Shown: one piece after another, positions 1,686 to 49,159 of the stretch
Numbering within the stretch: the first letter of the stretch is position 1
How the letters are laid out: every line of letters begins with the position of its first letter
DNA from: Saccharopolyspora gregorii
GTDB lineage: Bacteria > Actinomycetota > Actinomycetes > Mycobacteriales > Pseudonocardiaceae
DNA length: 64,000 nt
Assembly: GCF_024734405.1 (NCBI RefSeq)
Contig: NZ_CP059556.1
Coordinates: forward strand, 2,914,001-2,978,000
Direction of reading: 5' to 3'
The notes under the pieces: model-generated
What the model was told of the DNA's origin: nothing
The model's input: only the letters and a program-made list of their open reading frames with translations
Databases searched by the model: none
Program-made: the position numbers and the translations under genes

Positions 1686-3485
1686 ATGCCCGCGCTGAGT
1701 CCCAGGTCGATCCTCGAAGGCCGCAGCAGCGACCGCGTGCCGCTCCCGTTCATCATCGGGTTGATCGGGTGCGGCCTGTGCACGCTGCTGGCGGTCGCCT
1801 ACTACCTGCTCACCGGTGGCGTGCTCAGCACGGTGCTGAGCGGGTTGCTGGCGTTGCCGACGGTGGTGGTGCTGGTGGCGCTGGTGCTGCTGATGGACCG
1901 GCTGGAACCGGAACCGCGGGTGAACCTGCTGCTCGCGTTCGCGTGGGGCGCCGGAGTCGCCATCGTCGGCTCGTTCCTGGTGAACACGCTCGGCGGGTCG
2001 CTGCTGCACCCGGTGTACGGGCCGGAACTGGGCCGGGTGCTGACCGCCTCGGTGATCGCGCCGGTGGTGGAGGAGAGCTTCAAGGGCTTCTTCCTGCTGC
2101 TGATGCTGTGGTTCCGCCGGTTCGAGATCGACGGGCCGACCGACGGGCTGGTGTACGCGGGGCTGTGCGCGCTCGGCTTCGCGTTCGTGGAGAACGTCCT
2201 CTACTACCAGACCGGGTTGCTGGAGAACGGGTCCGCGGTGGCGGGCACGGTGCTGGTGCGCGGGGTGATCGCTCCGCTGGGGCACCCGATCTACACGGCG
2301 ATGACCGGGCTCGGCGTGGCCTACGCGGCGCACAGCAGGGGAAGCGGTCGCGGGTTCGCCGTGGTCGGCGGCTGGGTCGCGGCGGTGTTGCTGCACGCGC
2401 TGTGGAACTTCTCCTCGACGTTCGGCTACGGCGGGTTGGCGCTGGCGTACCTGGTGGAGCTCGGCGTGCTGGTGGCGCTGGTCCTGGTCGTGATCCGGGA
2501 CCGGCAGCGGCTCATCGGGCTGATCGGCACCCACCTGCCGCCCTACATCCCGAGCGGGCTGGTGCACGACGTGGACGTGCGGATGCTGGCGACGATGAAC
2601 GGGCGCAGGCGGGCGCGCACCTGGGCGCGGATGCAGGCGGGCCTGCCCGGGGCGCGGGCGATGGCGGACTACCAGCTGGCGGCCACGGAACTCGCGCTGC
2701 TGCACGACCACGCGACGCGGGCGACGATCCCGGTGGAGCTGTTCCACTCGCGGCGGGACGCGATCCTCGGGCTGATGCGGGTGGCGCGGAACGCGTTCTT
2801 CCAGCGCCGGCCGCTGCCGCAGGTGGCGCCGCCGCCGTGGGCCGGGACGCACCAGTCCGGCTTCTTCCGCACGTCGGAGCTGGCGACGACGCGGATGCCG
2901 GTGTACCGGCCCGCCCCGACGCCGCCTCCGCCGCCGCCCGGGCCGCTCGCGGTCTTGCGCACGCGGAAGATGCGGACGGTGGCGTCCGGCGGACGGCCGG
3001 GTGCGGGGGCGGGAGGTTCGCCGCAGCCCTCGGATCCGGAGGTGCGGACCGCTCGGTACTCGAACCCGCTGCGGCCGAGCACCCCGCGATCGGACTCGCG
3101 GCGGGCGAACCCGCGGTCGGCGAGCTCCCAGCGGTCGACCCCGCAGCCGCCGAACTCGCCATCGCCGAGCTCGCAGCCGGCGAACCCCCAGCAGTCGAGT
3201 CCGCAGTCGCCGAGCTCCCAACCGCCGAGCTCCCAACCGCCGAGCTCGCAGTCGCCGAGCTCGCAGTCGCCGAACCCCCACCAGTCGAGTCCGCAACCGC
3301 CGAGTCCGCAGCAGTCGAACCCGCAGCAGCCGAACCGGCCGCCCTCGAACCCGCAGCAGCCGGTCGCGCAGCAACCCGGTCCGCGGCGGCAGAACCCCCG
3401 GCAGCCCGGCGACCGGCGACCCGGACCCCAGCAGGGCCCGCCGGGACCACCGACCCCGCCGCCGAACCACCCGCCCCGCCCCTGA
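1686..3485 (+). CDS. PrsW-family intramembrane metalloprotease with proline/serine/glutamine-rich tail
   Basis: A 599-residue polytopic membrane protein. Residues about 20-290 hold several hydrophobic segments and the PrsW/CAAX-protease-like motifs: VVEESFKG (the EExxK-type glutamate pair), FVENVLYY, PLGHPIYTAM and LLHALWNF, which together supply the glutamates and histidines thought to bind the metal. Family members such as Bacillus PrsW cut anti-sigma factors in the membrane; many actinobacterial members have no known substrate. After a cytosolic stretch (about 290-430) the C-terminus is low-complexity, dominated by PSSQ/PPSSQ repeats encoded by 15-bp DNA repeats. The tail is much longer than in typical members. 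No anti-sigma gene lies next to it. Confidence 0.85.
   Translation: MPALSPRSILEGRSSDRVPLPFIIGLIGCGLCTLLAVAYYLLTGGVLSTVLSGLLALPTVVVLVALVLLMDRLEPEPRVNLLLAFAWGAGVAIVGSFLVNTLGGSLLHPVYGPELGRVLTASVIAPVVEESFKGFFLLLMLWFRRFEIDGPTDGLVYAGLCALGFAFVENVLYYQTGLLENGSAVAGTVLVRGVIAPLGHPIYTAMTGLGVAYAAHSRGSGRGFAVVGGWVAAVLLHALWNFSSTFGYGGLALAYLVELGVLVALVLVVIRDRQRLIGLIGTHLPPYIPSGLVHDVDVRMLATMNGRRRARTWARMQAGLPGARAMADYQLAATELALLHDHATRATIPVELFHSRRDAILGLMRVARNAFFQRRPLPQVAPPPWAGTHQSGFFRTSELATTRMPVYRPAPTPPPPPPGPLAVLRTRKMRTVASGGRPGAGAGGSPQPSDPEVRTARYSNPLRPSTPRSDSRRANPRSASSQRSTPQPPNSPSPSSQPANPQQSSPQSPSSQPPSSQPPSSQSPSSQSPNPHQSSPQPPSPQQSNPQQPNRPPSNPQQPVAQQPGPRRQNPRQPGDRRPGPQQGPPGPPTPPPNHPPRP
3130..3345 (+). repeat. degenerate 15-bp tandem repeats in the PrsW-like gene
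   Basis: Successive copies of a unit close to CCGCCGAGCTCCCAA encode P-P-S-S-Q style pentapeptides. The best copies lie around 3210-3270. The high GC repeats keep all reading frames open, which produces long false ORFs on both strands here. Confidence 0.75.
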
Positions 3486-29462: not shown

Positions 29463-29566
29463 ACCCGTTCCCCTCTCCACTCGGTTCCCAGGTCATGCTG
29501 CAACCGCCCAGCCTCGCGGACAACCACTGACTCTGCCGGGTTCGAACTTCTGTTGCGTGATGCTGG

Positions 29567-29718
29567 GGTGGCGGCACCTCACCGTTCTCCTCGCTGCGGG
29601 ATCTTTTTCCCGAGTGGCTCCGCCACGAGGGAAAAAGTGTCCTCGCGAGGAGAACGCTGAGAACCCGCGGGTGGTCCGGTTGCTTGCTGGGTCGCTGCTC
29701 ATCGGCTTCGCCGCTGAC
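29567..29718. repeat. dispersed palindromic repeat, copy 1
   Basis: About 152 bp closely similar to 48884-49036. Core hairpin: outer arms CGTTCTCCTCGC (29583-29594) and GCGAGGAGAACG (29645-29656); inner arms CTTTTTCCC (29603-29611) and GGGAAAAAG (29629-29637); apical GTGGC-TCC-GCCAC, separated from the inner arms by opposed GA/GA. A second weaker hairpin is at 29693-29716. In this copy GTGGCGG (29568) is matched by CCGCCAC (29725). It sits between divergent genes, so it is not simply a terminator. Confidence 0.85.
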
Positions 29719-29839
29719 AGGACACCGCCACGACCCGCAGGGCCGGTTCGGAGGCGTGGCGGTGGCCGCACTGCGCAACACGAGTCGAGGGACGACCAGT
29801 AAAGTGTTCGCGGGACGTTGACGACGTGGTGGCAGGCGA

Positions 29840-47954: not shown

Positions 47955-48848
47955 ATGGACACGATCGCACTCGAACTGGCACCGCCCGACCTCGACGGTG
48001 GACACGAGAAGGCCGTGGCGGAAGGCCGCAAGGTGGCCGAGAACAGCCGCGCCGCCGGGCTCGCCGACCGCATCGGTCACCTGATGATCCCGGGCATCAT
48101 CGCCGAGGACGACGACCGCCCGATCGAGATGAAGCCGAAGATGGACGTCATCGACTTCTGGAACGCGGTGCGCCCGGAGATCGGCGACGTGAAGGGGCTG
48201 TGCACCCAGGTCACCGCCTTCCTCGACGAGCAGCAGCTCGGCGACCGGCTGGTGGACCTGCGCAAGGCGGGCATGGAGGGCATCGCGTTCGTCGGCGTGC
48301 CCCGCACCATGTCCGACGGCGAAGGCGGCGGGGTGCCGCCGACCGACGCGCTCGCCAAGTTCCAGGACGTGGTGCCGAACCGCGGTTCCATCCTCATCCC
48401 GACCCGCGAGGGCGAGCACGGCCGGTTCAACTTCAAGTGCGAGCGCGGCGCCAACTACGGCATGACGCAGCTGCTGTACTCGGACGCCATCGTCGGCTTC
48501 CTGCGGGAGTTCGCCGCGAAGACGCCGCACCGGCCGGAGATCCTGCTGTCGTTCGGCTTCGTGCCGGGCGTGGAGGCCAAGCGCGGGCTCATCGACTGGC
48601 TCATCCAGGACCCCGGCAATCCGGCGGTGGAGGCCGAGCAGCGGTTCGTCGCCTCGATCACCGGCCTGTCCTTCGAGGAGCGCAAGCGCAAGCTGCTCGA
48701 CCTGTACAAGAGCGTCATCGACGGCGTGGCCGGGCTCGGGTTCCCGCTGAGCCTGCACCTGGAAGCCCCGTACGGGTACTCGAAGCCCGCGTTCGAGGTG
48801 TTCGCCGAGATGATCGACTACTGGGCGCCGGCCCAGCGGGCGGCCTGA
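47955..48848 (+). CDS. metF: methylenetetrahydrofolate reductase, mycobacterial (Rv2172c-like) type
   Basis: 297 residues. Motifs DDDRPIEMKPKMDVIDFWN near 52, GIAFVGVPRTMSDGEGGG near 108, ILIPTREGEHGRFNFKC near 137 and LSFGFVPG near 193 match the unusual actinobacterial reductase family represented by M. tuberculosis Rv2172c, which differs from classical MetF and was reported to work without bound flavin. It should supply 5-methyltetrahydrofolate to MetH. ATG 47955 has GAGG and GGAAGGAAGG upstream. Last member of the methyl-cycle block. Assignment rests on family resemblance from memory. Confidence 0.85.
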   Translation: MDTIALELAPPDLDGGHEKAVAEGRKVAENSRAAGLADRIGHLMIPGIIAEDDDRPIEMKPKMDVIDFWNAVRPEIGDVKGLCTQVTAFLDEQQLGDRLVDLRKAGMEGIAFVGVPRTMSDGEGGGVPPTDALAKFQDVVPNRGSILIPTREGEHGRFNFKCERGANYGMTQLLYSDAIVGFLREFAAKTPHRPEILLSFGFVPGVEAKRGLIDWLIQDPGNPAVEAEQRFVASITGLSFEERKRKLLDLYKSVIDGVAGLGFPLSLHLEAPYGYSKPAFEVFAEMIDYWAPAQRAA

Positions 48849-48883
48849 GGGGCCTTTGCTCGGGTCTTCCTCCGCAGTGGTCG

Positions 48884-49036
48884 GGTGGCGGAACCTCGGC
48901 GGCCCCCTCGCTGCGGGATCTTTTTCCCGAGTGGCTCCGCCACGAGGGAAAAAGCTGTCCTCGCGAGGGGGCCGCTGAGAACCCGCGGGTGGTCCGGCTG
49001 CTTGCCGGGTCGCTGCTCAGCGGCTCCGCCGCTGAC
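48884..49036. repeat. dispersed palindromic repeat, copy 2
   Basis: About 153 bp similar to 29567-29718. Outer arms CGGCCCCCTCGC (48900-48911) and GCGAGGGGGCCG (48963-48974) differ from copy 1 but still pair perfectly; inner arms CTTTTTCCC (48920-48928) and GGGAAAAAG (48946-48954) and the apical GTGGC-TCC-GCCAC are identical to copy 1. A second 8-bp hairpin TCAGCGGC / GCCGCTGA lies at 49017-49035. It sits between convergent metF and mmuM, beside a separate terminator. Confidence 0.85.
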
Positions 49037-49116
49037 GGGAAGCAGATGAGAACGGTGGCGCGGGCTTGATGCCTGGCCGTGCGCCACTCTGGGACCGGCG
49101 TTCGGCGCCGCGCATC

Positions 49117-49159
49117 GAACGGACCGCTCGGCCACTCCCTTGGGCCGAGCGGTCCGTTC
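49117..49159. terminator. bidirectional hairpin terminator
   Basis: Perfect 17-bp inverted repeat GAACGGACCGCTCGGCC / GGCCGAGCGGTCCGTTC with a 9-base loop, ending 3 bp from the mmuM stop, between convergent metF and mmuM. Confidence 0.8.

Follow-up and report, generated by a model that had tools for sequence, protein, structure and literature searches.

The window, a 64,000-nt stretch of DNA from Saccharopolyspora gregorii, contains two copies of a structured repeat, both on the forward strand. An earlier note had described a repeat of about 150 bp at these two places, and a covariance-model search (cmsearch) recovered it at both, at 29566-29720 with 168 bits (copy 1) and at 48883-49038 with 176 bits (copy 2). 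Copy 1 lies between divergent genes and copy 2 between convergent genes. The gene upstream of copy 2 is predicted to encode a methylenetetrahydrofolate reductase-like protein (MTHFR, PF19345) and ends in a TGA stop codon at 48846-48848 that is identical in genomes G001-G003. From this stop codon a weakly conserved 5' leader of 34 nt (48849-48882) leads to the core. At 49117-49159, outside the element, sequence comparison identified an older hairpin that resembles a terminator and belongs to the convergent gene pair.

The element has a core of about 156 nt (model positions 1-156) and, with weakly conserved flanks, is about 220 bp long overall. The core consists of two outer arms, left and right, an internal loop, an apical hairpin whose loop is TCC and, close to the 3' end, another short hairpin. 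In copy 1 the outer arms are CGTTCTCCTCGC (29583-29594) and GCGAGGAGAACG (29645-29656), both located by exact match, and in copy 2 they are CGGCCCCCTCGC (48900-48911) and GCGAGGGGGCCG (48963-48974). These 12-bp arms had been placed correctly in the earlier note, which counted four differences per arm between the copies; we count three. The inner hairpin, located by exact match and folding as both DNA and RNA, has the triloop TCC, which reads GGA on the opposite strand, and is, as had been claimed, the same sequence at 29603-29637 and 48920-48954. A second conserved hairpin is also part of the repeat; it is found at 29700-29716 with the triloop TTC (GAA on the opposite strand) and at 49018-49034 as CAGCGGC-TCC-GCCGCTG. 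One side of the internal loop carries the invariant TGCGGGATC and the other side TGTCCTC. Directly behind the inner hairpin copy 1 is short of one base, and a C.C mismatch lies immediately outside its 12-bp stem. An outer inverted repeat (CTGAC.GCCTGTCTTCGAAC) is weakly present in some copies of the element and degraded or missing in many others. Two types of tail were observed, type A with a terminal CAGCGGC-TTC-GCCGCTG and type B, seen in congeners, with a terminal run of GGCACGGCTTCGCCGC-like hairpins. Type B elements at congener loci L440, L441, L485, L486 and L470 share the main hairpin, and the hairpins of their terminal run are in tandem. Single strands of the element folded better than shuffled sequences as both RNA and DNA and on both strands, with RNA z-scores of -6.9 and -4.95 for the whole of copies 1 and 2 and DNA z-scores of -6.9 to -8.7 for the main hairpin on either strand. 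The proposal that the hairpin acts as DNA or RNA holds up.

We searched the genome and its relatives, as the earlier note had suggested, with a covariance model trained on 30 copies. This genome of 6,344,421 bp contains at least 137 copies among the matches listed (E <= 0.001), so the repeat is not a chance match; paired changes are abundant among the copies, and the outcome named as fatal to the claim, two copies only and no paired changes elsewhere, was not what we found. A core motif, CTCGCTGCGGGATC, occurs 139 times in this genome with up to one mismatch. Under the same rule five congeners have 350, 200, 266, 34 and 34 occurrences, a genome from a different genus (G018) has 114, and four genomes that lack model matches have 4-7 each. 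The reversed-motif control gave 0-3 occurrences, and 0-1 for the congeners. Across the sampled genomes of the family, 65 of 249 contained model matches, representing 14 of 46 genera, and in a sample of 200 genomes from the order all genomes with matches fall in the same family. Among the matches listed in a pattern scan, the named carriers include many Saccharopolyspora species, a Saccharomonospora, Halopolyspora algeriensis, and Amycolatopsis bartoniae. The earlier note could not match the repeat to a named family, and Rfam likewise returned nothing at the gathering threshold (best permissive E 0.46). Searches of plasmid and phage collections gave no match to the element, and a search of open-licence papers found no description of the hairpin family, which apparently is undescribed so far. 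Identity between nearest neighbours among the copies was at most 0.97, and no very recent copy was seen.

The claim that pairing is retained despite sequence change was borne out across the family. In the variable columns of the stem arms the paired fraction was 0.91, compared with 0.52 after shuffling. Over six variable columns, copy sets of 48, 108, 56 and 77 gave paired fractions of 0.92, 0.91, 0.84 and 0.99, and redealing the right arms among copies lowered these to 0.52-0.57, a contrast that is not a probability since such shuffles do not preserve relatedness. Compensated changes on both arms numbered 638 versus 177 changes on one arm. At the site between gap and pgk, four species have four distinct left arms (CTCAGTCGTCTTCTCGC, CTCAGGTGGCCTCTCGC, CTCAGTGGTCCTCCCGC and CTCAGGTGTCCTCTCGC), each of them paired or nearly so with its right arm. 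The earlier note took such changes as a sign of selection on a hairpin. The kept pairing stands, and selection is one of two accounts of it; the arms could likewise stay paired through concerted change by template switching or gene conversion, and the covariation is compatible both with selection on the hairpin and with one arm being copied from the other.

Placement was examined with 120 copies and their 3-kb flanks, in which genes were called with a custom codon-preference caller; the gene calls are approximate. Nearly all copies (119/120) are intergenic, and most lie immediately behind a gene and in the same direction as that gene: 100 of the 120 have a co-directional gene directly upstream, and in 90 of those 100 the core starts 5-46 nt past the stop codon, with a mode of 32-37. 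Placement between convergent genes accounts for 68 of 119 copies versus 50 of 389 other gene pairs at the same loci; divergent placement, as for copy 1, accounts for 5 of 119. For 30 of the 32 copies between tandem genes the core begins 23-41 nt from the upstream stop codon, and the next start codon lies at widely varying distances. In the nearest congener, 45 of 59 copies are co-directional with the upstream gene, 43 of them at 5-39 nt. Only 3 of 60 copies in that congener are at sites in common with our 120; therefore, the placement recurs independently.

Several simple associations were rejected. Ten neighbouring proteins examined with Pfam are all ordinary metabolic or housekeeping proteins, and inspection of the 93 listed upstream proteins revealed no evident transposase, which speaks against an association with special upstream genes. 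A target motif of C before the stop codon was discarded because this base is C in 54% of cases versus 57% for other genes, and TGA as a target because its use, at 98%, is barely above background (about 91%). The stop codon is not part of the element, since the same stop codon is present at empty sites. In the last five codons upstream of the element (L091-L210), third-position T is found at 11.5% versus 3.8% in other genes (Fisher p about 6e-7). At def, these T's are missing in two congeners that have no element, which hints at changes after insertion. At one copy near a contig end in G004 (L233), the upstream coding end resembles, by eye, an integrase-type IS transposase C-terminus, unlike the ordinary sequence upstream of a congener's matching copy (L225).

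Comparison of orthologous sites indicated that the element moves or turns over. Element-free sites with the upstream stop codon unchanged were found in congeners at def, cdd and three further loci, and at the empty def site the convergent stop codons are a few nt apart. At the MTHFR locus the position of copy 2 is empty in G001-G003, where a different copy is present beyond the retained older terminator-like hairpin; G004 and G005 contain no full copy there and seem to retain a remnant. Other sites are shared. The gap-pgk site is occupied in four species, and the truA site and a convergent site (L187) in three species each; shared sites of the gap-pgk type could be functional. The ends of the element were placed to within several nt, the flanks being too diverged between species to fix a target or a duplication. 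The copies are dispersed and non-coding, and their positions turn over between species.

Two asymmetries point to the strand that folds. One-step mismatches in the stems are A.C on the sense strand, hence G.T on the antisense strand, in 132 cases versus 36 cases of sense G.T, and 424 of 511 perfect triloop hairpins have TNC on the sense strand, which is GNA (N being any base) on the antisense strand, nearly always closed by a C-G pair. GNA loops combined with G-C pairs make DNA mini-hairpins that resist nucleases and have exceptional stability (PMC4686876). Judging from these wobble pairs and triloops, the functional fold is most likely formed by single-stranded DNA of the strand that is antisense to the upstream gene. 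The folding energy model did not clearly favour either strand, and strand-biased mutation is a possible confounder of the wobble asymmetry. With the position of the origin approximate, 87 of 120 copies in this genome are co-oriented with replication, versus 57% of flanking genes; among convergent placements the count is 49 of 69, where the replichore split was fitted to the same data. In G018, 57 of 68 exact core motifs are co-oriented when the contig start is taken as origin and the contig middle as terminus. With such co-orientation, the strand that folds better would serve as the leading-strand template and may be single-stranded less often, which may favour survival.

We consider it somewhat probable that this family consists of non-autonomous, REP-like mobile DNA hairpins of about 220 bp whose insertion depends on a trans-acting enzyme. 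Every copy combines a long hairpin, the arms of which co-vary, with at least one short hairpin; the putative enzyme would recognise these hairpins together with the conserved internal loop and would insert the element at gene 3' ends. Such an enzyme would not be a Y1/RAYT protein encoded in this genome. Pairing of the arms might be a requirement for being copied, or the arms might be copied from each other. We found no mobilising enzyme, no exact target or duplication and no very recent copy, and these points count against reading the family as mobile, as do sites shared by four species. More specifically, though only tentatively, the family may be mobile DNA of a new class, travelling as a folded single strand antisense to the upstream gene, targeting gene ends behind the stop codon and using an enzyme outside the recognised types of transposase. 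Miniature inverted-repeat elements (MITEs) and similar non-autonomous elements are likewise short, non-coding, dispersed and dependent on a trans factor, and the weak outer inverted repeat of some copies is a further likeness. Unlike MITEs, the element has an outer repeat that is often missing or degraded, and neither a target duplication nor a parent transposon was found.

The family could instead be an RNA element of the 3' untranslated region, acting as a terminator, a stabiliser or a brake on the last ribosome in the upstream mRNA, selected near stop codons and spread by recombination or in an old mobile phase. The sense orientation and the narrow spacing from the stop codon, in particular among the tandem cases, favour such a role, as do the strong RNA fold and the retention of the gap-pgk copy in four species. 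An effect on translation is reported for REPs of Escherichia coli that lie at most 15 nt from a stop codon (PMC12306157). However, the GNA loops and G.T wobbles sit on the antisense strand, the older terminator-like hairpin still adjoins copy 2, and an intrinsic terminator, meaning a GC hairpin and then a T run, was rejected: a T run precedes the inner hairpin and an A run follows it, which is the wrong polarity, and terminator scans were near chance level. We think a role as an RNA element unlikely.

The repeat might also be a fossil in which replication template switching or gene conversion keeps the arms paired with no selection. The excess of both-arm over one-arm changes and the four different stem words at the shared gap-pgk site speak for such copying. 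This account leaves unexplained the invariance of the loop sequences across genera, the GNA loops in which the middle base alone is free, and the fixed placement, and it seems to us quite doubtful.

Extragenic palindromes of the REP/BIME/REPIN type are, like the element, non-coding, intergenic, palindromic and present in high copy number near gene 3' ends, E. coli REPs being reported 1-20 nt from ORF ends (PMC12306157). The element differs from them in its length and its long hairpin with an internal loop, in an orientation that is fixed relative to the upstream gene, and in having copy-rich genomes, including this one, with no RAYT. The earlier note had suggested a mobilising transposase of the REP-associated (Y1, RAYT) type; searches with PF01797, in which the controls worked, returned no match in this genome and none in G001-G003 or G018, the genomes with the highest copy counts. 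Y1 genes were present in 20 of 65 carrier genomes versus 30 of 184 others (Fisher p=0.02, phylogeny ignored), and the extragenic, palindromic copies are as expected of such a family. The core, at 156 nt (about 220 with flanks), is several times the length of a REP unit of about 20-40 nt. Membership in a RAYT-mobilised REP/REPIN family was thus rejected as very improbable, a lost ancestral RAYT being the sole form in which it is possible.

An integron attC site is barely credible: attC sites share with the element a position directly behind a stop codon, a fold antisense to the gene and a structure that outlasts sequence, but inspection of the alignment showed AAC on both arms (GGAACC, AGAACC) and not inverted AAC/GTT boxes, so the R boxes (RYYYAAC ... 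GTTRRRY) are missing, as are cassette arrays, the copies being dispersed over the chromosome, and with no cassette movement of the upstream gene the neighbouring genes hold their position in species with empty sites.

Saccharopolyspora includes the producers of erythromycin and spinosyn. In these genomes the ends of ordinary genes, gap-pgk among them, appear to carry structured elements that are unannotated and number in the hundreds. Their strict placement behind stop codons offers a test of how mobile elements find safe sites, and with hundreds of natural copies the coordinated evolution of the arms, by selection or by template switching, is directly testable. If the element also alters mRNA 3' ends, a few per cent of genes would be affected.

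Two other repetitive stretches were observed. In G003 (L481), a tandem array of CCAGTTCTCCCGCGG-like units of about 15 bp lies between convergent genes where this genome has the element. In the window, positions 3104-3332 contain a series of GCCGAGCTCGCAGTC-like near-repeats of 15 bp, possibly a repetitive coding stretch.
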